The notes under the pieces: generated by a model | Seen by the model: only the letters and a program-made list of their open reading frames with translations | Database searches by the model: none | Told to the model about the DNA's origin: nothing | Assembly (NCBI RefSeq): GCF_009674825.1 | Contig: NZ_WKJH01000003.1 | Location: 1-64,000, forward strand | Direction: 5' to 3' | DNA: 64,000 bases | Origin: Maribacter luteus | Lineage (GTDB): Bacteria; Bacteroidota; Bacteroidia; Flavobacteriales; Flavobacteriaceae | Translations under genes and position numbers: made by a program | Shown: in pieces, positions 767 through 42,588 of the stretch | How the letters are laid out: every line of letters starts with the position of its first letter | Numbering within the stretch: the first letter of the stretch is position 1

Positions 767-793
767 AAAAAGTACGTTTTACAACAATAGTAA

Positions 794-1852: not shown

Positions 1853-1901
1853 TATATCTAATGTATTTATAATTGATTGCAAAGATACAATTTTTAATTT
1901 T

Positions 1902-1983
1902 TTACTTGCAAAATGAAATTAATTCAGTTTTTACTTGCATAGTAAAAGTAACTTATATATTTTTACTTGCAATTTAAAAGTAA
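1902..1983. promoter_or_regulatory. Three HxlR-type operators in the divergent promoter region
   Basis: The pattern TTACTT-N9-AAGTAA appears at 1931-1951 and 1963-1983, and with one half-site mismatch (AATTAA) at 1902-1922. Each copy has TTACTTGCA as its left half. The spacing is 29 and 32 bp, about three helical turns. Placement between the regulator and the SDR start codon at 2009 fits autorepression plus control of the operon. Confidence 0.6.
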
Positions 1984-2008
1984 TATACAATATATAAAAC
2001 AAATAAAA

Positions 2009-2878
2009 ATGAAAAATGTAATTATCACAGGAAGCAGTAACGGATTTGGATACCTTTCTGCAAAACTATTTGCAGACAACGGTTATAAGGTTTATGCAAC
2101 AATGAGAAATCCTGAAGGAAGCAATTCTGAAAAGAAACAAGAACTGGAAAAATATTCTTCGAGTATTAAAGTAGTGGATATGGACGTTGCCGAAGACGAT
2201 TCGGTAAAAGTTGCAATGGACAGCATAATTAAAGAAGTCGGTACAATTGATGTACTAATAAACAATGCTGGTATAATGCATTTAGGAATTGCAGAGGCTT
2301 TTAGTATTGCCCAAGCTAATGACTTAATGAATATAAACTATTACGGTATCATTAGAACCTCTCAGGCTGTATTACCAACAATGCGAAAAGAAGGAAAAGG
2401 GTTAATAATCAACACAACATCTGCTTATGGTAGAGTACCTGCTCCCTTTGCTTCAACTTATAGCGCATCTAAAGCAGCTGTAGAAGCTTATACACAAAGT
2501 TTAAAATATGAATTAGCTCCTACTGGAGTTGAATCCATTTTAGTTGAACCAGGACCATTTGCTACTAATTTAGGAAATTCATTTGTTCCAGAAGCTAGAA
2601 CAGAAATTGTAGCAGAGAACCCAGAATTACAAAAGATTCTTGGCAGTATGGTTGAAGGATTTGGAGTGTTAATGCAATCAAAAGATATTCCACAGCCTAG
2701 TATAGTTGCCGACGCTTATTTAAAACTGGCAGAAATGTCTCAAGGCTCAAGACCAACACGTACCACAGTTGGATTACCATTTGGTGCAGACAAGGTTAAT
2801 GAACTAACGCAGTCTATACAAGATGAGTCTTTAAGCAATTACAAATTAGAGTACTTATTAGAAACAAAAATCAAATAA
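2009..2878 (+). CDS. Short-chain dehydrogenase/reductase (SDR) 1
   Basis: This 289-residue classical SDR begins MKNVIITGSSNGFGY, with the TGxxxGxG-type NAD(P)-binding loop. It has the NNAG motif (INNAGIMHLG) and the catalytic Ser and YxxxK (NTTSAYG, then TYSASKAAVEAY). It oxidises or reduces a hydroxyl or carbonyl group with NAD(P); the substrate cannot be read from sequence. The start was chosen at ATG 2009 because it places the nucleotide loop at the N-terminus as in the family; an upstream TTG at 1967 would run through the third operator. It is first in a three-gene unit with the SDR at 2880 (1-base gap) and the NTF2-like gene at 3638. Confidence 0.88.
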   Translation: MKNVIITGSSNGFGYLSAKLFADNGYKVYATMRNPEGSNSEKKQELEKYSSSIKVVDMDVAEDDSVKVAMDSIIKEVGTIDVLINNAGIMHLGIAEAFSIAQANDLMNINYYGIIRTSQAVLPTMRKEGKGLIINTTSAYGRVPAPFASTYSASKAAVEAYTQSLKYELAPTGVESILVEPGPFATNLGNSFVPEARTEIVAENPELQKILGSMVEGFGVLMQSKDIPQPSIVADAYLKLAEMSQGSRPTRTTVGLPFGADKVNELTQSIQDESLSNYKLEYLLETKIK

Positions 2879-2879
2879 A

Positions 2880-3620
2880 ATGACCAATAATATAGCAGGC
2901 AAAGTAGTAGTCATTACAGGTGGAAGTAGCGGATTAGGAGAAGCTACAGCGCATTATTTGGCAGAAAAAGGAGCAAAAGTAGTATTAGGTGCTCGTAGAG
3001 TAGAAAAATTAGAAAAAGTGGCATCAGAAATTAAAAAAAATGGAGGTGCTGTTGAAATTTTAAGAACAGATGTTACCAGTGCCGATGATGTAAAAGCTTT
3101 GGTAAAAAAAGCCATTGACAGTTTTGGTAAAATTGATGTTATGGTCAACAATGCCGGTATTATGCCTTTGGCACCATTAAGTGCTTTAAAAGTTAACGAA
3201 TGGGACAGTATGATCGATGTTAACATAAAAGGTGTGTTATACGGTATTGCTGCAGCCTTGCCAGAATTTGAAAAACAAAAATCGGGTCACTTTATCAATT
3301 TAGCATCTGTTGCGGGATTAAAAGTAAGTCCCGGAGGAGCAGTTTATAGCGGTACTAAATATGCAGTGCGTGCCATAAGTGAAGGATTGAGGCAAGAGGT
3401 TGGTAAAGATATTAGAACCACTATTCTTTCACCGGGTTTAATAGATTCTGAACTACAATTAGGAAGTTCAGATGAGGCAACTTCACAATTTGTACAGCAA
3501 GTTTACAAAGATGCCATTCCTGCAATTTCCATTGCAAAAGCTGTTGCCTACGCTATTGAACAACCTGCAGATGTAGATATTAACGAACTAGTAATTCGTC
3601 CAACGATACAAGAATTTTAA
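2880..3620 (+). CDS. Short-chain dehydrogenase/reductase (SDR) 2
   Basis: This 246-residue classical SDR has the glycine loop TGGSSGLGEATA near residues 14-25, NNAGIMPLAPL, and the catalytic SVAG/YSGTKYAVRA segment. The C-terminus (IAYAIEQPADVDINELVIRP) matches the common clade of bacterial SDRs annotated as NADP-dependent 3-hydroxy acid dehydrogenase or YdfG-like. Its start follows the stop of SDR 1 by one base, so the two are probably translated from one message under HxlR control. The pair may act successively on one compound. The substrate is unknown. Confidence 0.88.
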   Translation: MTNNIAGKVVVITGGSSGLGEATAHYLAEKGAKVVLGARRVEKLEKVASEIKKNGGAVEILRTDVTSADDVKALVKKAIDSFGKIDVMVNNAGIMPLAPLSALKVNEWDSMIDVNIKGVLYGIAAALPEFEKQKSGHFINLASVAGLKVSPGGAVYSGTKYAVRAISEGLRQEVGKDIRTTILSPGLIDSELQLGSSDEATSQFVQQVYKDAIPAISIAKAVAYAIEQPADVDINELVIRPTIQEF

Positions 3621-3637
3621 AATAAAATTAGAATAAA

Positions 3638-4003
3638 ATGGAAGATTTTAAAAAAATATGGAATGACTGGTGTGAAAGTTGGACTATAACTAATAATACC
3701 GAAAGAGAACAAGAATTACAGAAATTTATAGCTGAAGATTTTAAATATACAGATCCACTTCAAGCAGTAAATGGTCGTGCACAAATATCGGATTATATAG
3801 GACAGTTTCAAGAGCAATTTCCTGGAACAACATTTGTTCCAACAAAAATACTTTCTCATCACGATAGATATCTAATAAAATGGGATATGCTAAACGAAAA
3901 GAATGAAGTTGTTGATGATGGAACGAGTTTTGCATTAGTTGAAGACAATAGATTAAAAGACATTACTGGATTCTTTGATGTAGAAAATTATCCTAATTTA
4001 TAA
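3638..4003 (+). CDS. NTF2-like (SnoaL-type) small protein
   Basis: This 121-residue protein has a nuclear-transport-factor-2-like fold, recognised by the N-terminal helix pair (IWNDWCESWTITNN), the FKYTDPLQAVNGRAQISDYI segment and a C-terminal strand pair that ends in a conserved IxGFFD. SnoaL-type proteins are isomerases, hydrolases or orphan ligand-binding proteins. It is the third gene of the HxlR-controlled unit, 17 bases after SDR 2, and a strong terminator follows. A role in handling the same small molecule as the two dehydrogenases is inferred. Confidence 0.75.
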   Translation: MEDFKKIWNDWCESWTITNNTEREQELQKFIAEDFKYTDPLQAVNGRAQISDYIGQFQEQFPGTTFVPTKILSHHDRYLIKWDMLNEKNEVVDDGTSFALVEDNRLKDITGFFDVENYPNL

Positions 4004-4033
4004 TTCAGTCTTCTTACGATTTAATGTTATTTC

Positions 4034-4076
4034 AAAAATCACAGTAGTATATTTCATTATTACTGTGATTTTTTTA
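4034..4076 (+). terminator. Rho-independent terminator after the SDR operon
   Basis: AAAATCACAGTA (4035-4046) pairs perfectly over 12 bp with TACTGTGATTTT (4061-4072), with a 14-base loop, and is followed by a T-rich run. It lies 30 bases after the stop of the NTF2-like gene. Confidence 0.8.
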
Positions 4077-4101
4077 TTTACCCAATGTTTAAAAATGGTA
4101 A

Positions 4102-4453
4102 CCGTTGCACAAGCCCTTAATTCCTACATAAACGGATTCATATAAGCCTCCTCAAGGGGCTTTTTTATTACTTCTTAGTGTTGGACTGTAAATTTCCGAT
4201 GGCCTGAAAAAGCTAAAAACAGATCTTGCACAACACTTTATTAAAAAGCCTTAAATAAAAGTTTTCCTAGCCCACTATTGGAGCGTTTTTGCTCGAATTT
4301 CAGGTATTTCTTCAGGTTGTAGTCGATCACCAACCGGAAACTCGCAAACAGTTTTTCTTGGTAATCTTTCTTTCCCTGCATACCTAAAGTTACGATCCAA
4401 ACGTTAAAATCACCTTTATCCTATGTGGTTTTTTCGTTAACTTGTGCAACAGG
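4102..4453. mobile_element. IS-derived non-autonomous element, copy 2
   Basis: The ends are GTTGCACAAG at 4104-4113 and CTTGTGCAAC at 4441-4450. The minus strand from about 4380 to 4270 reads as a transposase remnant (MQGKKDYQEKLFAS, then VIDYNLKKYLKF), parallel to copies 1 and 3. A hairpin AAGCC..CC / GGGGCTT followed by Ts near the left end (about 4145-4167) can terminate + strand transcripts. The left end is nearly identical to the truncated copy 4 at 6311, so these two form one subfamily. Confidence 0.65.
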
Positions 4454-4585
4454 CACACAGTATATAAAAAATTGCTGGTGTTTGGTTTAAATAAAAGCAG
4501 TTGCACGTTTGCTACGTCTGATTTTCCTTCGGAAAATCCTCGCACGCAAACACGCAACTTTTCATACATAAACACGTTAGCTTTA
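4454..4585. repeat. Cassette spacer, attC-like hairpin
   Basis: The left arm with GTATATAAAAAATTGC followed by TGGTGTTTG is imperfectly complementary to the right arm CGCAAACACGCAAC followed by CATAC. This gives a long stem with a central AT/GC-rich hairpin (GATTTTCCTTCGGAAAATC). It ends in GTTAGCTTTA at 4576-4585, which has its exact complement after the next gene (5335-5344). This is the R'/R'' arrangement of an integron cassette. Confidence 0.5.
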
Positions 4586-4587
4586 AT

Positions 4588-5331
4588 ATGAAAAAAATAG
4601 CCTTACTTGTTGGATTTATATTAATTATTTTTTATTTTTTTCACAGATATCTAATCTTTAGTTCCCCATACATAATTGAATTAAAGGATAATGATAATTT
4701 AGAAATATATCAAATTCTTGATTTCGACAAAGACAGTCTATATATCTCTAAAGAACGTTTTATAACAGATATACCGCTAACAGATTCAAATTATAGTCAG
4801 TTTGTACATATTCGTAAAGGGATATTGAGAGATTCTAATAACACTATTTTTTTTGTTAAATCAGACTATAATAAGAAAGAAAAAGAAGTTTATAGGATTA
4901 CAGATGACTATAAATACGAAAGAAGTGAAATTTCAGATTTAGATAAGTTAACACCTCTATATTACACAGAGTTCCCTAATGCCTCAGAGTTTAAACCATT
5001 TTACTATAAACTAAACGGCTACATAAATATAAATCCAGAAGCTACCAACCCAATTATTTTAGATTGCAAAAAGGAATTTTACCCTAGTTATTTTTTAAAA
5101 AACTTTTGGGAAATAGTATGTTGGAGTTTAAACCCTGCTGATTGTAGTCCAAATGCTCGAAAAGCGAAATACATAATCAAAATACAGTTAAAGAATCAAA
5201 CATTAAAACTTAAGAGTAAAGGTACTTCAGATTATGCTTACTTAAATATCTATTATAAAGATAATCCCAAAACTGATGATTTTATCCTTATTGAGTATTT
5301 TAATTCATTGTGGATTGTAAAAAATAAATAA
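4588..5331 (+). CDS. Membrane-anchored protein of unknown function (cassette gene)
   Basis: This 247-residue protein has an N-terminal membrane segment or uncleaved signal (KIALLVGFILIIFYFFHRYL) followed by an aromatic-, Asp- and Lys-rich extracytoplasmic part with no family I recognise. Two cysteines lie close together near the middle (CWSLNPADC). The gene is flanked by a perfect 10-bp inverted repeat, GTTAGCTTTA two bases before the ATG and TAAAGCTAAC three bases after the stop, so it fills a cassette almost exactly. Base use is more AT-rich than in the core genes further right. It is probably horizontally acquired. Confidence 0.7.
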   Translation: MKKIALLVGFILIIFYFFHRYLIFSSPYIIELKDNDNLEIYQILDFDKDSLYISKERFITDIPLTDSNYSQFVHIRKGILRDSNNTIFFVKSDYNKKEKEVYRITDDYKYERSEISDLDKLTPLYYTEFPNASEFKPFYYKLNGYININPEATNPIILDCKKEFYPSYFLKNFWEIVCWSLNPADCSPNARKAKYIIKIQLKNQTLKLKSKGTSDYAYLNIYYKDNPKTDDFILIEYFNSLWIVKNK

Positions 5332-5352
5332 TACTAAAGCTAACACCGGTAA

Positions 5353-5701
5353 CCGTCGCACAAGCCTTTAATCAGACATAATATTATCAATATAAGCCTC
5401 TTCAAGGGGCTTTTTTTATACCTCCCTAGAAGTTGAAAGTGAATTTTAGATGCCATAAAAATGTTCTGTTCAGGTATTGAAAGGCACTTTTAACAAATGC
5501 AACCAAAGCAAGCAATCCCACCCCACTTTTCGTTCGTTTTCCCATGAATTTCAGGTATTTCTTCAGGTTGTAGGCGATCGCCAACTGGTAACTCGCGAAC
5601 AGTTTTTTCTGATAGTCCTTCTTGCCTTGCATACCTAAAGTTACGATCCCTTTCCTGATTTAGAAAATAACCACGGTCTTTTTCATATCTTGTGTAACAG
5701 G
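5353..5701. mobile_element. IS-derived non-autonomous element, copy 3
   Basis: The ends are GTCGCACAAG (5355-5364) and CTTGTGTAAC (5689-5698), each one base off the consensus. On the minus strand 5632 to about 5500 is an open transposase remnant (MQGKKDYQKKLFAS, AIAYNLKKYLKF, GKRTKSGVGLLAL), the best preserved of the three. Here the element makes up nearly the whole junction between two cassettes: 10 bases separate the cassette-end box (5335-5344) from the left inverted repeat, and 11 separate the right inverted repeat from the next cassette-start box (5710-5719). Confidence 0.68.
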
Positions 5702-5731
5702 CACGCTGCGTCAGCACTAATTTGAAAATCA

Positions 5732-6289
5732 ATGAACCGATTCGCTAAAACCCTAGAAAAATACACTTCCGGAAAAAAAGTATTGGGTCTTTTTATACTC
5801 ACCAATGTTATTTACCTATTCATGTTACTGGTTACGATTCCAAAAACAATGGGATTCTCGAACGGAATGAAATTGTTGGATATGCTTCCAACGGGATATA
5901 ATCAGGACTATGTAAATAAATTATTTAGTACACTTGGTGAAAATGGGCGTGAAATTTATTTAACCAACCAAATACCTGTGGATATGATTTATCCGCTACT
6001 TTTTGGGCTGACCTATTCTTTGCTTTTGGCATTTTTTCTAAAAAAATTAAGCAAACTCAAGTCCCCTTTTACCTATCTTTCTATGTTACCAATAATTGCA
6101 GGAATCGCGGATTACCTGGAAAATATTGGGATTATCACAATGTTGAACAATTATCCGGACTTGACAGAGACTACAGTTAATGTAACCAATATTTTTTCAA
6201 TTATAAAAAGCACTACAACCAGTATATATTTTGTTGCTTTGATAGTAATCTTAATAATACTTGGAATTAAATTCATAAAAAAGAAATAA
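5732..6289 (+). CDS. Multi-pass membrane protein of unknown function (cassette gene)
   Basis: This 185-residue protein has about four predicted membrane segments: residues 18-36 (VLGLFILTNVIYLFMLLV), about 83-102 (IYPLLFGLTYSLLLAFFL), about 113-132, and a C-terminal one (FVALIVILIILGIKFI) ending in a KKK tail. I do not recognise a named family. The cassette is bounded by GTCAGCACTA (5710-5719) and TAGTGCTAAC (6293-6302), complementary at 9 of 10 positions. It probably encodes an inner-membrane protein. Confidence 0.7.
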   Translation: MNRFAKTLEKYTSGKKVLGLFILTNVIYLFMLLVTIPKTMGFSNGMKLLDMLPTGYNQDYVNKLFSTLGENGREIYLTNQIPVDMIYPLLFGLTYSLLLAFFLKKLSKLKSPFTYLSMLPIIAGIADYLENIGIITMLNNYPDLTETTVNVTNIFSIIKSTTTSIYFVALIVILIILGIKFIKKK

Positions 6290-6310
6290 AACTAGTGCTA
6301 ACACCGGTAA

Positions 6311-6378
6311 CCGTTGCACAAGCCCTTAATTCCTATATAAACGGATTTATATAAGCCTCCTCAAGGGGCTTTTTTCAT
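6311..6378. mobile_element. Left end only of the IS-derived element, copy 4
   Basis: GTTGCACAAG at 6313-6322 is followed by the same 60 bases as copy 2, with only a few substitutions, including the AAGCCTCC..GGGGCTTTTTT hairpin, which here can terminate the cassette transcript. After about 6378 similarity to the element stops and no right inverted repeat follows. The left end starts only a few bases after the cassette-end box TAGTGCTAAC, at the same offset as copies 3 and 5. Confidence 0.6.
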
Positions 6379-6601
6379 TGTGTCCACAGGCTCCATCGTG
6401 TATAACAACCTTAATTCCCTCTTTTCTTCTGTCTGATTATATTATAAATTTAAAGAGGATCAAACCTAGGACGTGTATAATTAATTACTCGTTGCGTGTG
6501 TACTCTGAAAATCCTGCAGATTTCGATAATGATTAGTTTCCATTTACTATCTTAGATCTAACCAACGCAACAAATCATATACGAACACCTTGGCAAACAT
6601 T
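6379..6601. repeat. Cassette spacer, attC-like hairpin
   Basis: ACGTGTATAATTAATTACTC and GTTGCGT (from 6471) are imperfectly complementary to ACGCAAC, AAATCATATACGAACACC (to 6590). This gives a roughly 120-base stem-loop. It ends in TTGGCAAACATT (6590-6601), matched at 9 of 12 positions by the complement of AACATTTACCAA after the next gene (7053-7064). This hairpin type (GTGTATAATTAATT..ACGCAAC) is one I recognise from intergenic spacers of other Flavobacteriaceae. No gene is seen in 6379-6470. Confidence 0.55.
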
Positions 6602-6613
6602 TAGCGCGACCTC

Positions 6614-7054
6614 ATGAAAAAAAGAAAGACAATTGCAATATTACTTTTGATTATCGGAATTGTTCTAAGTATCGCCTTTATAGTGAAGATTGATTTCCCC
6701 CAAGGTTTCGAGGCATATTTTAAAAGAGAGTATTATAATCAATTTGGTCCTTTAGCTATAAGTGTTGAGTTATTAATTGCTAGTTATTACCTATTTATAG
6801 GCCATAAAAAAACAAATTTCACTTTAGCTCTTTTTGGTTTTACTGCTTTGCTAGATCCCATTTTTAATCAAATTGGGCTTTTCAACAGCATCGTGCCTTT
6901 GTCTGGAACTATAATTTTATCGTTTTGTGCTTTGTTATGTCTATGGTTGGCATTTACAAACATTTATAAATTAAAACGCTTATCTATTTTTGCAGCTGTC
7001 CTCAGTGCTGTGCTTGGTGTCTTTATAGAACTGTTCTTCAATTACCTGCAATAA
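6614..7054 (+). CDS. Small membrane protein of unknown function (cassette gene)
   Basis: This 146-residue protein has four likely membrane segments: residues 8-24 (AILLLIIGIVLSIAFIV), about 45-62, about 70-88, and a long C-terminal hydrophobic region of two segments (SFCALLCLWLAFTNIY, then FAAVLSAVLGVFIELFF). No family is recognised. It is the sole gene of a cassette bounded by an imperfect inverted repeat (6590-6601 with 7053-7064, the latter overlapping the stop codon). Probably an inner-membrane protein. Confidence 0.68.
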   Translation: MKKRKTIAILLLIIGIVLSIAFIVKIDFPQGFEAYFKREYYNQFGPLAISVELLIASYYLFIGHKKTNFTLALFGFTALLDPIFNQIGLFNSIVPLSGTIILSFCALLCLWLAFTNIYKLKRLSIFAAVLSAVLGVFIELFFNYLQ

Positions 7055-7060
7055 CATTTA

Positions 7061-7143
7061 CCAATAACGCGAATAGTTCATTACTTCTGTTTATTCAGTA
7101 TCTTGGTATTAACACAACGAAACCATACACGAGCACATTGACT
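7061..7143. repeat. Short cassette spacer
   Basis: This 80-base spacer starts at a CCAATAACG box and ends with GAGCACATTGAC before the cyclase gene. The right part (ACACAACGAAACCATACACGAGCAC) resembles the right arms of the other cassette hairpins. I could not find a clear complement of its end box after the cyclase gene, so this unit is less certain than the others. Confidence 0.35.
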
Positions 7144-7185
7144 ACAATATGAAAGCATTCAATTTTTAGCGAAAAAAAGGACCAT

Positions 7186-8418
7186 ATGCCCAATGATGAT
7201 ATAAGCAAAACTTCAATTTTCCAAAGAATAGTTGATTATGGTGCTAATAAGGAGTTTTCAATAACTGAGAATAGGTATCTGCGGATAACAAATATTGCCT
7301 CTATCCTTGGCATCTTATTCATGGTGATGTGGATGATTACTGCTCTTTATCTTACAGATGCCCCAATACTTCACGTGAGCAATGGACTCTTGGCATTGAT
7401 GTTTTCATTCGTTCTACTGTTCAATGGCAAAGGTTGGAGGGTATTGGCTTCAACTTGGTTTACCGCTACAACTTATATTGGAATTATTCTATTTCTTTAT
7501 TTGCTGGGTTACTCGTCAGGGGTTTGGGTCATTTGTTACATCATAATAATTACTCCATACATGACCTTCCCTAAAAGTGCGAGGAAATTAGCTATCGGTT
7601 TTAGTATATTGGGGGGCTTGACTTTGATTATTTCGGTTGTGCTTCAATCAAAAATTATTGCTCACTATAATGTATTGGACCCTTATTTTCTGCAAGTGAT
7701 CAACATCAGCACAACGGGATTGATTTGCCTTACAATCGCATGGACTTTGTCTGTATTGATCGATAGGTCAGAAGAGTCTTTAAAGGCAGAGCAAAAAAGA
7801 TCAGATGACCTTCTGCATAATATCCTTCCGGTAAATGTGGCAAGAGATCTAAAAGAAACTGGTAAAACAGTACCTAAAAGACACAAAAATGTAACTATAC
7901 TGTTTACTGACTTCATAGGCTTTACCGAGTTAGTAGCTAGCATTCCTGCAATTACTTTGGTCAACGAACTCAATGATATTTTTGGACGATTCGATGAGAT
8001 TGTCGAGGAGACAGGAGTTGAAAAAATTGAAACAATTGGGGATGCATATATGGCTGCATGTGGCCTTGAAGAAGAGGTTAAAGAACATGCCATTAATTGT
8101 ATTAAAGCTGCACAACGCATGTTATCCTATCTTGAGGAGAGAAATAACAAACATGAAATAAAATGGAGAATGAGAGTTGGGGTACATTCGGGGCCAATAG
8201 TGGCCGGCGTAGTAGGAAAAAAGAAATTTAACTATGATCTCTTTGGAGATACGATTAATATGGCAAGTCGTATGGAATCTTTAGGAGAGCATGGCAAAAT
8301 AAATATATCAAAAACAACCTACCAGCTTGTCAAAAATGATATCAATTGTGAAAGCAGGGGAAAAATTCACGCTAAAGGAAAAGGGGAATTGGAAATGTAT
8401 TTTGTAAAATATAGCTGA
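7186..8418 (+). CDS. Membrane-bound class III adenylate/guanylate cyclase
   Basis: This 410-residue protein has an N-terminal region of about six membrane helices (residues 32-195), a short linker (SEESLKAEQKRSDDLLHNIL), then a class III cyclase domain (residues about 225-405). Metal-binding Asp residues lie in LFTDFIGFTEL (about 241) and IETIGDAYMA (about 285), the transition-state Asn/Arg region is GDTINMASRMES, and RVGVHSGPIVAGVVG is conserved. The substrate-selecting positions are mixed: Glu in KIETIG, as in guanylate cyclases, but Asp in NYDLFGD, as in adenylate cyclases. It makes cAMP or cGMP in response to an unknown membrane signal. It sits in the cassette region with no cyclic-nucleotide effector nearby. 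Confidence 0.88.
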   Translation: MPNDDISKTSIFQRIVDYGANKEFSITENRYLRITNIASILGILFMVMWMITALYLTDAPILHVSNGLLALMFSFVLLFNGKGWRVLASTWFTATTYIGIILFLYLLGYSSGVWVICYIIIITPYMTFPKSARKLAIGFSILGGLTLIISVVLQSKIIAHYNVLDPYFLQVINISTTGLICLTIAWTLSVLIDRSEESLKAEQKRSDDLLHNILPVNVARDLKETGKTVPKRHKNVTILFTDFIGFTELVASIPAITLVNELNDIFGRFDEIVEETGVEKIETIGDAYMAACGLEEEVKEHAINCIKAAQRMLSYLEERNNKHEIKWRMRVGVHSGPIVAGVVGKKKFNYDLFGDTINMASRMESLGEHGKINISKTTYQLVKNDINCESRGKIHAKGKGELEMYFVKYS

Positions 8419-8429
8419 CAATATGTAAT

Positions 8430-8817
8430 GTATAGCACCCTTCGGGATGCCACAACACCATATACAGAACAATGATGTAGCTTTATTCATATCATTTTCA
8501 TTGATTTTAAAGGTATTCCTGTGTTCGCTGCGCTCGTGACGCCCGCGTCGACCATAATCCCTTCATCCCCTTTAGCCCCACTCCTTCCCCCACACTGTTT
8601 TCGCAGATGTCGCCCGGTCTTTTGGAAATGCTACATCATCGCAGCGCCATATGCAATTTATCACCGCTGCTTGCCTATCTTACGGGTGTTCATCCGTCGC
8701 TTTGATCAGTGGTAGACGTCATTTTATTCCCAATATTGTCGAAAACCTTTTAAGGTTTTCACTATATTCCCTTAAAAATAACGTGGACTTCACATAGCGC
8801 GGCGTTGGCGGTAATAA
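8430..8817. repeat. Long intergenic repeat A, paired with 9970-10440
   Basis: There is no gene here. The block shares long stretches with the spacer after the next gene: the TTGATTTTAAAGGTATTC region, GCGTCGACCA.AATCCCTTCATC, CGCAGATGTCGCCCG, ATGCTACATCATCGCAGCGC, TTACGGGTGTTCATC, TTTTATTCCCAA, and CTTCACATAGCGC. It also contains a GAAAACCTT..AAGGTTTTC hairpin. It ends in GTTGGCGGTAATAA (8804-8817), complementary at 13 of 14 positions to the bases right after the hydrolase gene. The unit behaves as a cassette spacer of a longer type. Confidence 0.6.
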
Positions 8818-8845
8818 GAAAAACTACAGAACCAATTAAGAACAT

Positions 8846-9955
8846 ATGAAAATAGTAAAGAAAATAGGAAAGTGGTTTCTGATTTTATTGGGAGCAATTG
8901 TTGCGTTTATTTTAGTTGTTTTATTAGTAATCCGAATCAATAGTTCCGGAGATGAAGAACCTTTTTTAGACGAAAAGGGAAATGTGCTTCCAAATAGTAT
9001 TGCTATGCACGAGGATATGACAATTAATGGAGTACCACAAAGGATTACCATTAGAGGAAAAGACAAAAACAATCCCGTGCTACTAAAAGTTCACGGAGGA
9101 CCAGGAGCACCCATTTTACCCGTAATTTACAAACTCACAGGAGTTGATTTGGAAGATATATTTACGGTTTGTTATTGGGAACAAAGAGGCTCTGGACTAG
9201 CCTATAATGACAGCATACCTGATTCGTCGATTACCCTAAACCATATTGTGGATGATGGTTTGGAATTATCAAATCACTTAAAAAAGACTTTTAAAAAGGA
9301 TAAGATTTACATCGAAGGTTTATCTTGGGGAACAGCGGTAGCAGCTTATATGGTTCAAAAAAATCCTGAATTATATCACGCCTATATTGGTAGTGGTCTT
9401 ATGGCCAATCTATCACTTTCGGAAGAGTTATCTTATGAATTTGCAATGTCAGAATCGCAAAAACATAATGATACGATTTCAATAAATCAATTAAAACAAA
9501 TTGGAAGACCACCTTATGTTAAAAACTCAAAAAATTCAGTAGTTGAAGCCTTTGAAATAGAACGACAGATTGTAATGAAATATGCACCGATAAAATTAGA
9601 TACCGACTTTAATTTTATTAAAAGTATGTTTTTAGATGATGGATTGACGTTTAAGGAAAAATTTACCGATATGATAAATAGTCCTGAATCCTACTATCCT
9701 GCAGCTAAGATTTTACAACCTACTGCTATCGATATGAATCTAATGCGTGATGTTCCTGAATTTAAAGTGCCAGTATACATACTACAAGGAGACAATGACC
9801 ATTTTACTGAAACGTCTGTAGCAAAGGCGTATTTTGATTCAATTATTGCGCCATCTAAAAAATGGTTTTTATTTGAAAATGGAACGCACGGAGTACAGGT
9901 TGAATATCCAGAAAAATATCGTTCAATATACATCAATGAAATACTGGGGAAATAA
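8846..9955 (+). CDS. Membrane-anchored alpha/beta hydrolase, proline iminopeptidase-like (cassette gene)
   Basis: This 369-residue protein has an N-terminal membrane anchor (residues 9-31), then an alpha/beta-hydrolase fold. The oxyanion-hole HGGPG motif (KVHGGPGAPILP) and the following CYWEQRGSGLAY segment are diagnostic of the proline iminopeptidase (S33) group. The nucleophile elbow is GLSWG, the acid is probably the Asp in LQGDNDHFT, and the histidine is in ENGTHGVQ. It likely cleaves an N-terminal proline-type peptide or a related amide or ester at the membrane. The substrate is unknown. The gene is enclosed by a 14-bp inverted repeat (8804-8817 and 9956-9969). Confidence 0.82.
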   Translation: MKIVKKIGKWFLILLGAIVAFILVVLLVIRINSSGDEEPFLDEKGNVLPNSIAMHEDMTINGVPQRITIRGKDKNNPVLLKVHGGPGAPILPVIYKLTGVDLEDIFTVCYWEQRGSGLAYNDSIPDSSITLNHIVDDGLELSNHLKKTFKKDKIYIEGLSWGTAVAAYMVQKNPELYHAYIGSGLMANLSLSEELSYEFAMSESQKHNDTISINQLKQIGRPPYVKNSKNSVVEAFEIERQIVMKYAPIKLDTDFNFIKSMFLDDGLTFKEKFTDMINSPESYYPAAKILQPTAIDMNLMRDVPEFKVPVYILQGDNDHFTETSVAKAYFDSIIAPSKKWFLFENGTHGVQVEYPEKYRSIYINEILGK

Positions 9956-9969
9956 TTACTACCGCCAAC

Positions 9970-10440
9970 AATGAACTGAGCTAAAAAACAACTAAAACTT
10001 AGCTCAATCTGCCAGTATTCTCCCTATCATCTTCGTTGATTTTTAAAGGTATTCATATTTTCGCAATGCTCGGAACGCATGCGTCGACCAAAATCCCTTC
10101 ATCTCATTTTGCCACCGCTCCCTCCCGCACACTGCTCTCGCAGATGTCGCCCGTTCCTTTAAAAATGCTACATCATCGCAGCGCTATGACAGATTGCCAT
10201 CGGGATAGGATGAGAGGTCACTGGCAAATAACGCCGCTACGGCTTTTCAACGCAACATATCAATACGCTATATGCAATTTATTCACCGTTGCTTGCTTAT
10301 TTTACGGGTGTTCATCGGTCGCTTTGCTCGGTGGTACACATGATTTTATTCCCAACATCGTAGAAAACTTATAATGGTTTTCACTATATTTCCTTAAAAA
10401 TAACGTAGACTTCACATAGCGCTGTATTGGCAGCAAATTT
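9970..10440. repeat. Long intergenic repeat B, paired with 8430-8817
   Basis: There is no credible gene; an open frame across it is not protein-like and coincides with the repeat. It carries the same ordered blocks as repeat A, with an extra stretch near 10190-10260 (GGGATAGGATGAGAGGTCAC and following). It ends with TTGGCAGCAAATTT (10427-10440), whose complement at 12 of 14 positions follows the next gene (12198-12211). Confidence 0.6.
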
Positions 10441-10448
10441 CAAAAACC

Positions 10449-12197
10449 ATGATTAAAAAAGCAACAACAATTCTCATAATTCTTTTTATCAGTTGTTCGC
10501 CAAAATCTGACTTGCCCGACAATTCACAGAAAATTGAAAACCTTAAAACCTTTTCCAAGATTTATGGATATATAAAATATTTTCATCCAAGTGATGAAGC
10601 CTTTGGACTCGATTGGGATAAATTTTCAATTTATGCCGCAAACAAGGTGTTGAAATGTGAAACAAACGAAGCGTTTGTAAACACAATCTACTCTTTATTT
10701 TCTCCTATTGCACCTTCAATTAGATTTTCTAATTCTAATGGTGATACTTTGGTTATAAAAAATTCGAATAATTCTGATGTTATTGGAGAACAATTCTGGT
10801 TTCACCAAGGGGTTGGATATGGAATGTCAATTCAGAATGGTCCATTTTACAGTAAGCGCATTATTGCCACCCCTGAAAATGATTCTATATCATTTCGACC
10901 AAGATATGGAGAGACCACAATTGTTAGCCTTAATGAAAATCGATATTTAGCTATTCCTTTAGTTGTCAACGTAAATGAAAGTGGCACAATTCCAAAATCC
11001 AGTAAAAAGAGTATAGAGAATCTTAGAAATAAACTAAACAATTATAAAATTGACAAAAGTTCAATATCCTTTAGACTAGGAAATATTATAAATACTTATA
11101 ATGTGTTCCAACACTTTTTTCCCTATTTCGATGTTTTAAATTTGGATTGGGAAAATGAATTAGAAAGTGCTCTAATCAGGTCTTTTAAAGATTCCTCTTT
11201 AAAAGACCATCTTATTACACTCAGAAAATTCACATCGCCTTTAAAAGATGGTCACATATTCATAACTTCAAAAAGTGTTAAGGAAGAAGTATATGCCCCT
11301 CCCTTTTTTTGGGAGTGGTTAGATGATAAACTTGTGATTTCAGATGTTTGGGAAGATGATTTAAACCTTAAAAAAGGTGATGAAATAATAAAAATAAATG
11401 GAGTTGATTCAAAAGAATTTTTTGAAGAGATTAACTCAATGATATCCGCTGGAACTTTAGGCCGGTTGCGCCACAAATCAGAAGAGATTTCGCTTTTGGG
11501 AGAAAGTGGCTCAAAATTTACAATCGAAACTGTCAATCAAACAATTGAAGTTACCAGAAACCAAGAACCTTATAGTCATGCAAAATCACTTAACCCCTAC
11601 ACAAAGATTGAAGAAGGAATCCACTATCTAAATCTTTCCCTCATGGACATGGAAACCTTTAACTACCTGCTTCCTCAACTCGAAAAAAGTACTGGTTTAA
11701 TATTTGATTTACGAGGTTACCCCTATAATAATGGTGAGATTATTAAACATTTAATGAAAGTAGGTGATACAACAAAGGATTGGATGTATATTCCTAAAAT
11801 TGTTTACCCAGACCAGCAAAAACCTAAAAGTTATTTGACCGCAAGTTGGAAAGGATTTTTTGAACCGGCTTTACCATATTTGGGAGATAAAAAGGTAGCA
11901 GTAATTACCAACGGAAAAGCCATAAGCTATGCTGAGAGTCTAATGGGTTTCGTTAAGGGGTATAAATTAGCTACCATAGTAGGGCAACCAACTGCTGGGA
12001 CCAACGGAAATTTCAATACGTTTAATCTACCAGGTGAAATTGAAATTAGTTGGACTGGAATGAAAGTTGTAAAACATGACGGCTCTCAATTATATGGAAT
12101 AGGTATTTTACCCGATGTTTATGTTCAAAAAACAGTAAAAGGAATAAGAGAAGGCAGGGACGAGTTTCTTGAAAAAGCAATAGAAATTGTACGGTAA
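10449..12197 (+). CDS. S41-family peptidase, probable lipoprotein (cassette gene)
   Basis: This 582-residue protein starts with a short lipoprotein-like signal (IILFISCSPKSD). The order is an N-terminal helical region that includes FSKIYGYIKYFHPSDEAFGLDWD, a PDZ-like segment (LKKGDEIIKINGVDSKEFFEEI), and a C-terminal tail-specific protease domain. The domain contains GLIFDLRGYPYNNGE, VAVITNGKAISYAESLMGFV with the likely nucleophile Ser, and VGQPTAGTNGNFNTF. The catalytic Lys would be in the WTGMKVV segment. It is probably exported and membrane-tethered and degrades proteins or peptides from their C-termini. It is cassette cargo bounded by the inverted repeats at 10427 and 12198. Confidence 0.85.
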   Translation: MIKKATTILIILFISCSPKSDLPDNSQKIENLKTFSKIYGYIKYFHPSDEAFGLDWDKFSIYAANKVLKCETNEAFVNTIYSLFSPIAPSIRFSNSNGDTLVIKNSNNSDVIGEQFWFHQGVGYGMSIQNGPFYSKRIIATPENDSISFRPRYGETTIVSLNENRYLAIPLVVNVNESGTIPKSSKKSIENLRNKLNNYKIDKSSISFRLGNIINTYNVFQHFFPYFDVLNLDWENELESALIRSFKDSSLKDHLITLRKFTSPLKDGHIFITSKSVKEEVYAPPFFWEWLDDKLVISDVWEDDLNLKKGDEIIKINGVDSKEFFEEINSMISAGTLGRLRHKSEEISLLGESGSKFTIETVNQTIEVTRNQEPYSHAKSLNPYTKIEEGIHYLNLSLMDMETFNYLLPQLEKSTGLIFDLRGYPYNNGEIIKHLMKVGDTTKDWMYIPKIVYPDQQKPKSYLTASWKGFFEPALPYLGDKKVAVITNGKAISYAESLMGFVKGYKLATIVGQPTAGTNGNFNTFNLPGEIEISWTGMKVVKHDGSQLYGIGILPDVYVQKTVKGIREGRDEFLEKAIEIVR

Positions 12198-12211
12198 AAA
12201 TCTGCTGCTAA

Positions 12212-12420
12212 CAGAGCCTAAACGTAATGCGGGCTTCGGGCTTAATCTAAAGGTCTATGTATATTTATAAAGTCGCTAAATTGAATATTTCGCTGTCGCG
12301 TAATCTTTAATTTTAACTTTGGAAAAAAGAAAGAAAAAGCAAAACAAAAAGATTTTGCTATGTGCGTGGCGGAAAGCAAACGCTAGTTTGCGCCCATACT
12401 GTTCATAGCTCAACCGTTAG
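12212..12420. repeat. Cassette spacer, attC-like (family shared with 1145-1380)
   Basis: The spacer begins after TCTGCTGCTAAC and ends with CCGTTAG. Shared blocks with 1145-1380 include GGCTTCGGGCTTAATCTAA, TATTTATAAAGTC, AACTTTGGAAAAAAG, and GTGCGTGGCGGAAA. GCAAACGCTAGTTTGC (about 12376-12391) is a hairpin inside it. The terminal box GTTAGGCATAATA (12416-12428) fits the integron core consensus GTTRRRY exactly (GTTAGGC). Its complement follows the next gene at 13187-13199. Confidence 0.55.
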
Positions 12421-12433
12421 GCATAATAATGGC

Positions 12434-13186
12434 ATGAAAGAAGAGATTAACTTAGCAGGAAGACCTTACATCTTTAGATTCAGACAGAATACTGACAGAA
12501 CAATCGAGGAAATAGCCGAAAATTATATTTATTTTCCTGATAGAGAATCCCTGAATGACCCTTTTGATTCTAGTCCTGATTTAGTTTATTTGACAAAGAA
12601 CCCTGAAGCCACCTTAAAACTTTATCAATTAGTTTCTGAAGGAATTACGGATAAAGCGGTTAAAAAACATTTTGACTCTAAATATGATTTAGATAAACTT
12701 CAAGAATTCGCACATGAAAAAGTTAAGGATTTTATACTTGAATTTGGAGTTGCATGCTTTTCAATGTATTATATGAACTTGCCACTTTGGGCAAACTATG
12801 CAAATGACCATAAAGGTGTTTGTTTGCAATTTGACAGCGACATTGACAAAGATTTTTTCTCAGTTTTAGGACCAGTAAGTTATGTAGAAGACTTAACAAA
12901 ATTGGAATTCTCTCCGATTATTGAAGATTCTGACATGGGAAAAATTTTTTATAGAAAAGCCATAAATTGGAGTTATGAAAAAGAAGTTCGTTTAGTAAAA
13001 GGATTTAAAGGAAAAGCTAATTACAATAAAAGAGCATTGAGAAATGTGATTTTAGGATATAACTCTGACGATGATTTCAGAGATAAAATAGTTGAAGCAG
13101 TAAATAAAAATTATGAAGATGTTGGAGTTTACAAAATGGAAAAACCAACTAAAATAAATAAGTTTACATTGACAAAAATAAAATAA
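12434..13186 (+). CDS. DUF2971 family protein (cassette gene)
   Basis: This 250-residue protein has the DUF2971 signatures FRFRQNTDRTIEEI near the start, YFPDRESLNDPFDSS, and MNLPLWANYANDHKGVCLQFD, where the conserved W and HKG lie. YEKEVRLV is near residue 190. The function of the family is unproven; members are often found in defence islands and mobile regions. The start was placed at ATG 12434, because an open frame from further upstream would run through the cassette boundary GTTAGGCATAATA. This cassette has the cleanest integron-type boundary of the window (12 of 13 bases complementary). Confidence 0.8.
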   Translation: MKEEINLAGRPYIFRFRQNTDRTIEEIAENYIYFPDRESLNDPFDSSPDLVYLTKNPEATLKLYQLVSEGITDKAVKKHFDSKYDLDKLQEFAHEKVKDFILEFGVACFSMYYMNLPLWANYANDHKGVCLQFDSDIDKDFFSVLGPVSYVEDLTKLEFSPIIEDSDMGKIFYRKAINWSYEKEVRLVKGFKGKANYNKRALRNVILGYNSDDDFRDKIVEAVNKNYEDVGVYKMEKPTKINKFTLTKIK

Positions 13187-13207
13187 TACTATGCCTAACA
13201 CAGGTAA

Positions 13208-13316
13208 CCGTTGCACAAGCTCTTGAACAGCAAAAAAAAGACCTCTTTTAAACCCTTTTTAGGGGCTTTTTGTTTTTAGGCCACTGGGCTATCTAGATTT
13301 TTAGGGAAGCTTACAC
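13208..13316. mobile_element. Left end only of the IS-derived element, copy 5
   Basis: GTTGCACAAG at 13210-13219 is followed by a sequence nearly identical to the left 110 bases of copy 1, including the CTTTTTAGGGGCTTTTTG hairpin/terminator and the CTAGATTTTTAGGG block. Similarity ends around 13316, and CGTTGTGCCTAAT follows. No right end or transposase remnant is present. It starts a few bases after the cassette-end box ATGCCTAAC, as in copies 3 and 4. Confidence 0.6.
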
Positions 13317-13659
13317 TGCGTTGTGCCTAATTAAAAAATTCCGTTTCATAAAATAATTAAGATCAAATGATTTTATCTTTGATAGTATCAAAAATGAAAC
13401 CGCGCTACCGATTACATCTTCTATTTTAAAATTAATAATTTCTATTTCAGAAAAAATAGGAGATGTAATGAAGATGTGAAAGATTCACTGAAAGCAAGTA
13501 AAGGTTCTATTAATGGAAATGTAAACTTGTTACTAAATCAAAATAGCATTGAATAATCTTGAGAATATTTTGGAGAAAGGATTGCAATTTGATTTAGGTA
13601 CAGACAGTTTAAAGAAACAAAACCTAAATGAAATTCCAAATTATTATGAATTTCTTTAA
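13317..13659 (+). pseudogene. Degraded reading frame, unidentified
   Basis: There is no intact gene between copy 5 and the DUF6653 gene. Two short protein-like stretches lie in adjacent frames: KDSLKASKGSINGNVNLLLN, followed by QNSIE and a stop at 13553-13555, then NNLENILEKGLQFDLG, then TDSLKKQNLNEIPNYYEFL and a stop at 13657-13659. Joined by a frameshift, they would be the C-terminus of an unknown protein. A promoter-like or boundary role for the rest of this AT-rich stretch cannot be shown. Confidence 0.25.
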
Positions 13660-13712
13660 AATGAAATACCACTACTGAAAATTAAATAGGAGTAAAAAAA
13701 ACAAATAGAAAT

Positions 13713-14207
13713 ATGACCTTAGAAAAACAAATAGCTAAAATATTCAAACTTGATGGGGAGAGTTGGATGAAGCATACCAATCCTTGGTCTATATGGACAA
13801 GGTTTGCTACATTACCTTTTATAATTCTGGCTGTATGGTCGAGAATTTGGATTGGATGGTATTGTCTAATTCCGATTGCTATTCTTATTATTTGGATAAT
13901 TATAAATCCAACCTTATTTAAGAAGCCAAAAAGCATAGAAAATTGGGGTGCAAAAGCCGTTTTAGGAGAAAGGTACTGGGCTGAACGAAAAACAGTATCA
14001 GTTCCAAAACACCACTCTACACCAATTCTTATTCTAACCATATTACAAACTGTTGGTGGAATTATTTTAATGATAGGTTTATGGAAACTAGAAATAAACT
14101 TGACAATAATTGGTGCGATTATGGCTTATATGTCTAAAATGTGGTTTCTAGATAGAATGGTTTGGATATTTAGAGAAATGAAAACGAACACCCAACAACA
14201 TAAATAA
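13713..14207 (+). CDS. DUF6653 family membrane protein
   Basis: This 164-residue protein has an N-terminal MTLEKQIAKIFKLDGESWMK segment. Its HTNPWSIWTRFATLPF and ENWGAKAVLGERYWAERK motifs are characteristic of DUF6653. Hydrophobic segments lie at about residues 33-65 and 105-145. Function is unknown; probably an inner-membrane protein. It lies in the cassette region, but the spacer before it is decayed and no bounding inverted repeat was found. Confidence 0.75.
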   Translation: MTLEKQIAKIFKLDGESWMKHTNPWSIWTRFATLPFIILAVWSRIWIGWYCLIPIAILIIWIIINPTLFKKPKSIENWGAKAVLGERYWAERKTVSVPKHHSTPILILTILQTVGGIILMIGLWKLEINLTIIGAIMAYMSKMWFLDRMVWIFREMKTNTQQHK

Positions 14208-14214
14208 TTTATTG

Positions 14215-14330
14215 CCTCTTTTTGCTTACTTAAGAAAATCCTCCCGTATTTTCCATTCGGTCTGTATTTGCTAAATTAGTCGCTGAAAACACGCAACGAA
14301 ATCAAATACAAACACGTTGGAAAACAATAA
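14215..14330. repeat. Cassette spacer, attC-like
   Basis: GCTAAATTAGTCGCTGAAAA, then CACGCAACGAAATCAAATAC and ACACGTTGG, is a spacer end I recognise from other Flavobacteriaceae genomes. The left half (TTGCTTACTTAAGAAAATCC..TTTTCCATTCGG) is the matching arm. It ends with CGTTGGAAAACAATAAAG before the next gene. No complement of that end box was found after the gene at 15244, so the downstream boundary is decayed or different. Confidence 0.5.
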
Positions 14331-14356: not shown

Positions 14357-15244
14357 ATGAAAAATATACTATTGCTTTTTGTTATCGTGATTCCATCATT
14401 GGTATGTGGACAAAAGCAGGAAACTTTAAGTGGGATTTTATGGGGTAGGGTGAATAATTGTTACTCAATGTTTGAAGATATGGACGATGATGGGGTTCTT
14501 GATTTCAACAAGATCGATGACTCCCAAAACGGTTACCTAAAAATCTCTGGTAGCTGGCCAACTTGTGGATGTTCGTGTAATTCTACGGTTGGGGCCTATA
14601 AAAACAGTGAGGGTAAGTATGTAATCCTTCAATCAGATCAAGTAGAATGTAGTTGGGAAAGAAAAATCTCATCCAATCTGGACCTAAAAGAAGTTTTACC
14701 CATTGATTTTGGTATCAATAATTTTACATCAGAGCATATCGATAGCGAAAGCGACTATTCGGTTTTTTTTATTGACATTGAAATTCCTAGGATTGGAACA
14801 GATACCAAAGTTAAAATTGAATTGGTCCCCTTTGGATTAAGACCCAAAGGTGAAAATTTAATTTGTTTTGGATACAAAGTAGAGGAACCTTATAAATTTC
14901 TCTATGGTATTAAAAATGTAGCAAAAGGAATATCAGACCCAAATACCATATCTTATTTATTAAACGGCTCTTTTGATAAAATATCATCTTCGGACAACAC
15001 ACTAATATCAAAATTACTTGGACCTGAAGATGATCGTTTTGAATCTATGGAAGAGTTGAGCGAATATTTAAAAGAACTAAAGAATACTTATGATCTGTAT
15101 TGCAAACTGAAAACCAATGAATTGATTCTGGGGTGGAATAGAAGTGAATCAAGGTTTTTCATAAAAGGTACAGGAGAAAAAATACCTGAAATATCATTTA
15201 GGGAATTCTTGATAAATAATAGCTATTGGAGCTGGATGTGCTAA
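14357..15244 (+). CDS. Secreted protein of unknown function
   Basis: This 295-residue protein has a cleavable signal peptide (MKNILLLFVIVIPSLVCGQ). The mature part has an Asp-rich FEDMDDDGVLDFNKIDD segment that could bind calcium or be an EF-hand-like loop (DMDDDGVLDF), then a cysteine cluster CGCSCN near residue 73. No family is recognised. The context is the cassette array, and it is probably horizontally acquired cargo that acts in the periplasm or outside the cell. Confidence 0.7.
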   Translation: MKNILLLFVIVIPSLVCGQKQETLSGILWGRVNNCYSMFEDMDDDGVLDFNKIDDSQNGYLKISGSWPTCGCSCNSTVGAYKNSEGKYVILQSDQVECSWERKISSNLDLKEVLPIDFGINNFTSEHIDSESDYSVFFIDIEIPRIGTDTKVKIELVPFGLRPKGENLICFGYKVEEPYKFLYGIKNVAKGISDPNTISYLLNGSFDKISSSDNTLISKLLGPEDDRFESMEELSEYLKELKNTYDLYCKLKTNELILGWNRSESRFFIKGTGEKIPEISFREFLINNSYWSWMC

Positions 15245-15544
15245 TAACACTATATAGGAATGCGCCTTTGGGGTACCGCTAGTGCAGACCCCGAACGTTG
15301 TCCATAGTTACACAATATGCTACCCCTACTTCAAAACCAATGAACTTTTTGCTTTCACGTTATTCGTATTAAAGTAAATTGAGTAAGATTTTGAGAAATA
15401 TAGAAACTAGAAATTTGGCTACACGTACATTGGAAGTAAGCACCTTTTCCCCAAATCCCTATGAATTCTACTAAAATTCCGTTTTCTTTATCTAAATTAG
15501 TTTCACGACGGGTCTTGCGGCCCACCAAACCATGACATATACTT
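15245..15544. other. Intergenic stretch with a degraded cassette spacer
   Basis: It contains GGAATGCGCCTTTGGGGTACC..CCCCGAACGTTGTCC, which resembles the end of a cassette spacer, and then about 200 AT-rich bases in which I see no gene, RNA or clear repeat. Confidence 0.35.
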
Positions 15545-39358: not shown

Positions 39359-39393
39359 GGGTTTAAGTTACAAACAGTACTATCAAATATAAT

Positions 39394-39464
39394 GGAAAAA
39401 CAGGTTTTATTTTGGAAAAACGGGTTTTATTTTGATTATTTAAGGAAAAACGGGTTTTTAAGTA
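39394..39464. promoter_or_regulatory. Three phased copies of GGAAAAACGGGTTTT upstream of fic-hsdR
   Basis: GGAAAAACAGGTTTTATTTT starts at 39394, GGAAAAACGGGTTTTATTTT at 39414 and GGAAAAACGGGTTTTTAAGT at 39444. The offsets are 20 and 30 bases, so all three lie on about the same face of the helix. They precede the fic start codon (39358, minus strand) by 36 to 106 bases. A shorter relative, TTAGGTTTTATTTTAC, appears further upstream. They are candidate operators for an unidentified regulator. Confidence 0.5.
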
Positions 39465-39700
39465 TTTTGGATTATTAGGTTTTATAATGACATTTTAGGT
39501 TTTATTTTACTTGTTATTGGAAAATTAGGTCTAAAAACGTGGGGCAATGAATAAAAACGAGCGCAAAACTTACTACTACTAAAATACGTGCGCCACTATT
39601 CTTTAATTTTCGAATAACCTGTTGTTTCCAATGCTTTTTTTTGTTTCAGCTACGCTCAACAATCAAGCACCGATAATACTATGTATTACAATTTTAACCC

Positions 39701-42582: not shown

Positions 42583-42588
42583 TTGCTA

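Follow-up and report, generated by a model that had tools for sequence, protein, structure and literature searches.

A putative relic of an integron-like cassette array in Maribacter luteus, and its counterparts in relatives

The first 64,000 nucleotides of contig NZ_WKJH01000003.1 of Maribacter luteus (assembly GCF_009674825.1; this whole stretch is called the window below) very probably carry part of a decayed cassette array that belongs to an integron-like system of Bacteroidota with a different recombinase and a differently coded site. Judged by its sequences, the system works like an integron and is not one by the usual definition: the recombinase has no IntI-specific domain, the sites do not follow the GTTRRRY consensus, and array and recombinase gene run in the same direction. 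By the same measure, relatives of the system occur in many Bacteroidota. What was observed are units of one gene each, boxes private to each unit, stems that covary and favour one strand, boundaries within GTT, copies with new neighbours and, in relatives, the order recombinase, attI-like place, array.

Private boxes, predicted folds and cassettes with new neighbours

A sequence-only reading of the window had proposed an array at 4576..13199, with a private inverted repeat around each gene, and every position and score of its six pairs was reproduced on the + strand: 4576/5335 (10 of 10), 5710/6293 (9 of 10), 6590/7053 (9 of 12), 8804/9956 (13 of 14), 10427/12198 (12 of 14) and 12416/13187 (12 of 13). 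A strict 12-nt rule derived from relatives (positions 1-10 complementary, then A against C at position 11) finds three pairs within 4000-14000 of the window (4576-5344, 8804-9969 and 12416-13199). None of 200 shuffles of that stretch reached three (mean 0.015), and five 10-kb control stretches elsewhere in the window gave no strict pair on either strand. A looser rule (at least 11 of 12) makes a weaker test: it returns four pairs, one of which (5087/5671) is unrelated to the array, while shuffles average 1.1 pairs and reach four in 6 of 200 cases, and the control stretches hold 0, 1, 1, 0 and 3. The remaining pairs, at 5710, 6590 and 10427, open with the triplets GTC, CTT and ATT respectively and look like mutated versions of the 12-nt rule.

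The rule itself is clearest in relatives. In the array of one of them (G306), the pairs read GTT-N6-AAT...ACT-N6-AAC. In a non-circular test, units were delimited by flank cues alone (n=259; repeated loci not collapsed), and all six private bases were complementary in 193 of them, compared with 1.36% when ends were shuffled (200 shuffles); that the repeats are private to each gene is thus borne out in relatives. A second set was picked by the box rule: 362 units, reduced to 309 with a recognisable right end and to 304 distinct sites. Its private 6-mers are of 114 different kinds, and position 11 is A/C in 262 sites, A/G in 35, A/T in 5 and A/A in 2. In 190 of 199 adjacent units, 115-124 nt separate an end box from the start box that follows. 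The earlier remark that one window box, GTTAGGC, fits GTTRRRY is correct for that box, which is an exception in this system: such boxes occur in just 17 of the 304 sites, where GTT and AAC are fixed by selection. The window and contigs C9, C23, C26 and C29 of the same genome were included in the unit counts and supplied 2 of the 362 strict units, so these statistics describe relatives.

Relatives were sampled at three depths: 397 genomes of the family, 395 of the class and 296 of the phylum. A 25-position pattern for the right-hand end of one type of spacer, searched with at most 2 mismatches, was found in 212 of the 397 family genomes, and the reversed pattern gave 2 matches overall. A scan of named genomes returned at least 119 stretches; the 80 listed bear mostly the names of Flavobacteriaceae genera, such as Winogradskyella, Polaribacter, Lacinutrix, Maribacter, Zobellia and Algibacter.

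The spacers between units had been likened to the palindromic attC sites of integrons, and when folded as single strands they do form hairpins, which are strand-asymmetric; the worry that no stable hairpin might form is thereby removed. Rebuilt as in an excised circle, the site is more stable on the bottom strand in 300 of 304 cases (means -26.1 kcal/mol for the bottom and -21.8 for the top strand), and folded as integrated in 296 of 304 (-20.6 and -17.1 kcal/mol). Control windows inside genes lean the opposite way, the bottom strand being better in just 82 of 304. The bottom strand folds better because its stems hold G·T pairs where the opposite strand has A·C: 1274 outer-stem G·T pairs were counted on the bottom strand against 33 on the top strand. 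Covariation was followed in 50 bottom-strand sites, drawn from 78 references at one per named locus. In the L stem, 11 of 16 predicted pairs show double changes that preserve pairing and one pair is G·U in all 50 sites, so that spacer types vary in sequence while stem and wobbles persist. The predicted folds (five examples) also place a short one-sided bulge between the L stem and the R stem formed by the private boxes.

Cassettes recur as exact units with unrelated flanks. In five groups, drawn both from single genomes and from different species, the cassettes share 88-100% identity over their interior, while 140-300 nt out their identity is 0.25-0.36 upstream and 0.29-0.40 downstream, which is chance level; the nearest 45 nt upstream are 40-84% alike because the sites resemble one another. 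One relative (G335) has a 512-bp cassette in six identical copies: one at the attI-like place behind the recombinase gene and five after other sites (one of these after another copy of itself). Their left flanks before GTT read ATT, CAC, TAC, AAC, ACC or AAC, and their right flanks diverge just past GTT, which places the exchange point within GTT. Cassette order is therefore not fixed, since in relatives cassettes are duplicated, with new neighbours and exact boundaries. Of 302 cassettes (two over 4 kb left out), 281 have their longest open reading frame (ORF) on the array strand and 18 on the opposite strand, while 3 have none; this frame fills a median of 92% of the cassette body. These are single-gene cassettes in one orientation, a criterion of integrons.

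The recombinase, its place and the competing explanations

Four large arrays (in G306, twice in G335, and in G163) have on their 5' side a gene for a tyrosine recombinase of ~355-405 residues with an N-terminal extension of ~90 residues. In a 12-row alignment the presumed catalytic residues are invariant. The array had been described as having no visible integrase. This stands for M. luteus's own array, which has a broken fragment only (on C29), and fails for relatives, where the suggested look beside larger arrays found a tyrosine recombinase at the array's 5' end.

The position of the array relative to this gene recurs. The test within the family started from the 23 best matches to the recombinase, left out four at contig edges and two already included, and added G014 and G032, which were chosen by genome. 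None of the resulting 19 regions was chosen for its sites, and in 11 of them the first exact-pair cassette begins 36-114 nt past the recombinase stop. The four array stretches and 6 of 7 loci from a site-motif scan agree with this attI placement, both sets having been picked for having sites; over all distinct family loci, an array lies 30-114 nt behind a co-directional recombinase in 20 of 28. A class test covered 20 regions from other families, picked by E-value and room behind the gene, and found an exact-pair cassette at 36-133 nt in 12. An unpaired box was recognised by eye at four further class loci (L283, L285, L288 and L291), two of which lie at contig edges, and six additional exact pairs within 400 nt in the class scan are chance-like. 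In other classes of the phylum, an exact pair stands at the attI place in 3 of 8 regions. By its box tails, the array is co-directional with the recombinase at the 20 family, 12 class and 3 phylum loci that have an exact pair at this place. Among the class matches (for example G408:C132, G478:C19 and G536:C21), the recombinase repeatedly lies ~1 kb from the contig start on the minus strand, so that its 3' side faces the contig end; assemblies interrupted by repeats immediately behind the gene would give this arrangement.

The affiliation of the enzyme bears on the first alternative. Among seven recombinases scanned, NF040815 is the best NCBIfam match in six (above its cut-off in three of the seven); TIGR02249 (integron-integrase) is the best match of one and second-best of five. 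The IntI-specific domain is absent in all seven and in one recombinase aligned to IntI4. Against Pfam the extension matches DUF5710 only, and weakly (E 0.011-0.098 in 4 of 6); a profile search of PDB sequences gave nothing significant for it (3nnq ranked first at E 0.044, SMARCAL1 4o66 second at E 0.066). For a predicted full-length model, the listed fold matches cover residues 102-366. That the system is a classical integron (IntI, attI and attC) whose integrase is merely divergent or was overlooked is thus very unlikely: GTT/AAC ends, bottom-strand bias, single-gene cassettes and the TIGR02249 matches would all suit it, but the IntI domain is missing.

A second alternative is that cassette movement is due to another enzyme, host XerC/D or some other recombinase, the extended recombinase being adjacent but without a role. 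At E 1e-5 the extension is present in 229 of 397 genomes of the family and in 167 of 395 of the class; at E 1e-10 it is present in 29 of 296 phylum genomes. In the family, 151 genomes have both recombinase and site motif, 61 the motif only, 78 the recombinase only and 107 neither (odds ratio 3.4, p 5e-9). The alternative gains from the existence of motif-rich genomes that lack the extended recombinase, eight of which, in the family, have at least 8 motif matches, and from the presence of extensionless cores. It is nonetheless highly improbable, since the order of recombinase, attI place and first cassette recurs across family, class and phylum, and the G335 cassette has copies at the attI place as well as farther along the array. 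Extensionless cores were also considered as array integrases and set aside, no array following in G141 or L104; two further cores, L331 and L332, hold a stop.

The least probable explanation, that the spacers are intergenic repeats (repetitive extragenic palindrome- or miniature inverted-repeat transposable element (MITE)-like, or terminators) and that genes are swapped by homologous recombination at repeat-rich loci, draws on the terminator-like hairpins seen by eye in long-loop spacers, on their 15 genome matches and on the many arrays at contig ends, yet it leaves unexplained the private boxes that match across each gene, the exchange within GTT with 88-100% identity inside and chance level outside, and the constant place behind a recombinase, and terminators would act in the top-strand transcript while the wobbles favour the bottom strand.

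Several results weigh against an integron-like system run by the extended recombinase. First, the search for an exact pair at the attI place found none in 8 of the 19 regions from the family, 8 of the 20 from the class and 5 of the 8 from the phylum; some of these stop at a contig edge or have a partnerless box, and no recognisable box was seen in L241 (family), L289, L290, L293 and L296 (class) or L323 (phylum). Second, a near-perfect palindrome (arm at least 10, at most 1 mismatch) precedes the first cassette in 15 of the 32 loci; at two loci, individual shuffles reached 12. Third, the site motif occurs in 61 of 168 family genomes that have no extended recombinase; in the motif-rich G141, G294 and G091 the recombinase core lacks the extension, and an array was looked for behind the G141 core and not found. 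The single extension match in the M. luteus genome, an intact recombinase at C19:234 kb, likewise has no array behind it. Fourth, since the 304-site set was picked by the box rule, its GTT/AAC ends and R-box complementarity exist by construction, and 53 of the 362 units were dropped with an unrecognised right end. Finally, the site of Polaribacter phage P12002L, folded in integrated form, has no bottom-strand gain (top -13.7, bottom -13.4).

On the integron-like reading, a cassette would consist of one gene and the site behind it. An excised circle would set the cassette's first 12 nt (GTT-N6-AAT) beside its own end box (ACT-N6-AAC), so that the bottom strand could fold with ~28 outer pairs (R stem, asymmetric bulge, L stem), the G·T wobbles flagging it as the substrate. 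The extended recombinase, encoded just upstream and co-directional, would then join the folded strand at GTT to the attI-like site just past its own stop codon or to the site of another cassette. We infer that this recombinase is the acting enzyme and that single-stranded bottom strands and circular intermediates are used; the cut would fall at G|TT, and the N-terminal extension may read the folded site.

We lean slightly towards a broader proposal, a second, phylum-wide integron lineage. It would use a XerA-like recombinase and not IntI, would choose the strand by G·T wobbles and not by extrahelical bases, and would have private R stems that make the free circle (-26.1 kcal/mol) a better substrate than the integrated site (-20.6 kcal/mol), so that capture would exceed loss; the extension would be a junction-binding domain. 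The sole sequence hint for this last part is the non-significant match to the SMARCAL1 HARP domain (E 0.066). If the system works as proposed, 290 of the 397 family genomes carry recombinase, sites or both, and the usual detector of integron integrases, which depends on the IntI domain as the available text of PMC9668308 describes it, would not call them complete integrons. The system would also be an independent test of what integrons require, with an alternative enzyme, strand code and attI layout.

The window array and its remains in the M. luteus genome

An array at 4576..13199 was confirmed, and those limits proved too short: to the left there is an end box at 774-785, and to the right probable units extend to ~15.25 kb, giving about nine units, all on the + strand. 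Leftmost is a truncated unit with end box ACGTTTTACAAC (774..785) and a helix-turn-helix gene by eye (455-766), followed by a long-loop ("A-type") attC-like spacer with inner arms near 790-806 and 1132-1147. Genes at 1427-4003, between this end box and the later units, have no recognisable boxes. At 4097..4575 an A-type spacer (arms 4097-4114 and 4441-4456) is followed by the right-hand portion of a C-type site, which ends in ..CATACATAAACAC|GTT; no intact end box lies to the left of the spacer. Cassette 1 (4576..5344) has boxes GTTAGCTTTAAT (4576-4587) and ACTAAAGCTAAC (5333-5344) around a gene (4588-5331) with a weak DUF7863 match under that model's cut-off. Its A-type spacer of 365 nt (5345..5709), rebuilt with the cassette 1 start box, folds at -33.9 (top) and -41.0 kcal/mol (bottom). 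In cassette 2 (5710..6302), box GTCAGCACTAAT (5710-5721) has a mutated first triplet, its partner is ACTAGTGCTAAC (6291-6302), and the gene (5732-6289) has no Pfam match. A hybrid spacer (6303..6589) with an A-type left end (6306-6323) and a C-type right end (..CATATACGAACACC) leads to cassette 3 (6590..7064), whose decayed boxes TTGGCAAACATT and AACATTTACCAA match at 9 of 12 and whose gene (6614-7054) also lacks a Pfam match.

Probable cassette 4 (7137..8422) has decayed boxes, ATTGACTACAAT and TATAGCTGACAAT, that are not a matching pair; its gene (7186-8418) is an adenylate/guanylate cyclase, and a relative of the cassette (70% over 1307 nt) lies inside the array of a same-genus genome (G032). 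Cassette 5 (8804..9969; boxes GTTGGCGGTAAT at 8804-8815 and ACTACCGCCAAC at 9958-9969) carries an alpha/beta hydrolase gene (8846-9955), and parts of the B-type spacer behind it (9970..10426) are 81-85% repeats of stretches in 8505-8814. Cassette 6 (10427..12212), with partly decayed boxes TTGGCAGCAAAT and ATCTGCTGCTAAC, holds an S41 peptidase gene (10449-12197). A D-type spacer (12213..12415; first AGAGCCTAAACGTAATGCGGGC, last ..CATAGCTCAACC|GTT) separates it from cassette 7 (12416..13199; boxes GTTAGGCATAAT at 12416-12427 and ACTATGCCTAAC at 13188-13199), which has a DUF2971 gene (12437-13186). A possible unit 8 (13713..14207) has a DUF6653 gene and a putative end box ACACCCAAC (14188-14196) that overlaps the gene end; a matching start box was looked for and not found. 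After a C-type spacer (14197-14315) comes probable unit 9, with start box GTTGGAAAACAA (14316-14327), a gene at 14357-15244 and, ending the unit at 15248, an end box TGTGCTAATAAC (15237-15248) that is degenerate and fails to match the unit's start box.

Rfam gave no match on the window at gathering scores. The A-type spacers are provisionally read as a long-loop site type because their arms GTAACCGTTGCACAAG and CTTGTGCAACAGGCAC pair in the manner of the L stem. A 74-aa minus-strand frame inside one belongs to no Pfam family. An inserted insertion sequence (IS) or MITE is the less likely reading: all 15 genome matches are on the array strand and none is long enough for a full element.

The search of the M. 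luteus genome covered 4.65 Mb in 30 contigs, the window lying on C19. A 17-nt spacer motif (at most 2 mismatches) has 15 matches on one strand and 3 on the other, the reversed pattern 2 and 1. Most matches fall either at the start of a contig (C9, C19 with the window, C23, C26) or at C29:87-91 kb; as they cluster at contig starts, the array was probably split by assembly and, on this motif, carries on in other contigs beyond the window. C9 and C26 start with a near-identical cassette end (L030 1-300 and L032 1-300), and their spacer subtypes diverge after the common motif GTAACCGTTGCACAAG.

The C29 array is preceded by a C-terminal recombinase fragment with in-frame stops, which aligns to positions 284-366 of the recombinase profile (E 7e-31), and its first two units have private pairs by eye. 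With several window boxes mutated and the only array-side recombinase broken, the window array is probably a decayed relic, though unsequenced contig ends could conceal a working copy. In another species of the genus (G032) the recombinase is intact and ten exact-pair units are convincing; in a blastn search of its array region against the array contigs of M. luteus, the sites and the cyclase cassette match and nothing outside the G032 array does. The intact recombinase at C19:234 kb (L033 6191-10356) adjoins two genes that resemble a Sir2-like/HerA-like pair by eye. Elsewhere in the window, 34946-44043 looks by eye like a type I restriction-modification operon whose subunit genes are separated by a Fic-like gene; a gene that resembles phospholipase D lies alongside.

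Comparison with known systems

Accounts of integrons in this phylum are brief in the text available from each source: one complete integron, in Salinibacter, is given for Bacteroidetes by the authors of the usual detector (PMC9024848), Bacteroidota are listed without detail among integron-bearing phyla (PMC8618304, PMC9668308), and intI is listed for the Bacteroidetes/Chlorobi group (PMC2426708). A literature search, with preprints and most subscription journals outside its scope, found no description of the present system.

One published experiment concerns phage P12002L, where, in the available text, one of two attC sites tested recombined with IntI1 as a bottom strand and gave no clones as a top strand (PMC9892861). 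The phage has a present-type site by its methyltransferase genes (L327 3115-3254); there it is treated as a phage attC cluster (as far as the accessible text goes, PMC9892861), and its identity with the tested site could not be checked. Phage P12002S has three present-type sites, the bottom strand slightly better; sites beside methyltransferase genes lie at L328 1346-2002, 2942, 3839 and 4502, and in one stretch the boxes that flank a methyltransferase gene form an exact private pair. Spread by phages was considered and set aside: in viral contigs the exact right-end pattern matched once (L313 6584-6608), and no recombinase was recognised by eye among the ORFs of that contig. A blastn search with one site returned records of nine phages (Polaribacter, Tenacibaculum) and five plasmids (Tenacibaculum, Persicobacter, Flagellimonas). 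Two plasmids of Tenacibaculum finnmarkense, L329 (CP116296.1; 6894-8878 and 10118-12141) and L318 (CP116298.1; 8008-9142), have a similar site directly adjoining a tyrosine recombinase gene; L329 has two such genes, each next to an IS91-family transposase gene in the deposited annotation. Recombinase and site are possibly an insertion unit that targets these hairpins.

Like the attC clusters without integrase known as CALIN, the window array has no working integrase alongside, but its sites belong to the present type. The recombinase shares core and catalytic domains with XerA-type recombinases (NF040815, "site-specific tyrosine recombinase/integron integrase"; PDB 5hxy and 4a8e) and differs from them in its ~90-residue N-terminal extension and in the cassette array behind its gene.

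Another close likeness is to the sedentary chromosomal integrons of the Vibrio type, which work with IntI and in which, as in integrons generally, the integrase usually diverges from the array, with known exceptions. Both have arrays of one-gene cassettes, exchange at GTT, sites that fold as bottom-strand hairpins, an attI-like place by the recombinase gene, and repeated, shuffled cassettes. The differences lie in the enzyme, its layout and the site code. The present recombinase has no IntI-specific domain, the feature that defines IntI and serves its detection in the accessible part of PMC9668308; it has an N-terminal extension, is co-directional with its array, and has the attI place 3' of its gene, palindromic in about half of the loci. 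Strand choice in classical attC depends mainly on an extrahelical base, according to the text available from PMC2727003. Here the strand is probably marked by G·T wobbles, and a private R stem of 9-12 nt takes the place of GTTRRRY. The label integron-like is thus supported in amended form, for a system that has a candidate integrase of its own and is not a classical integron.

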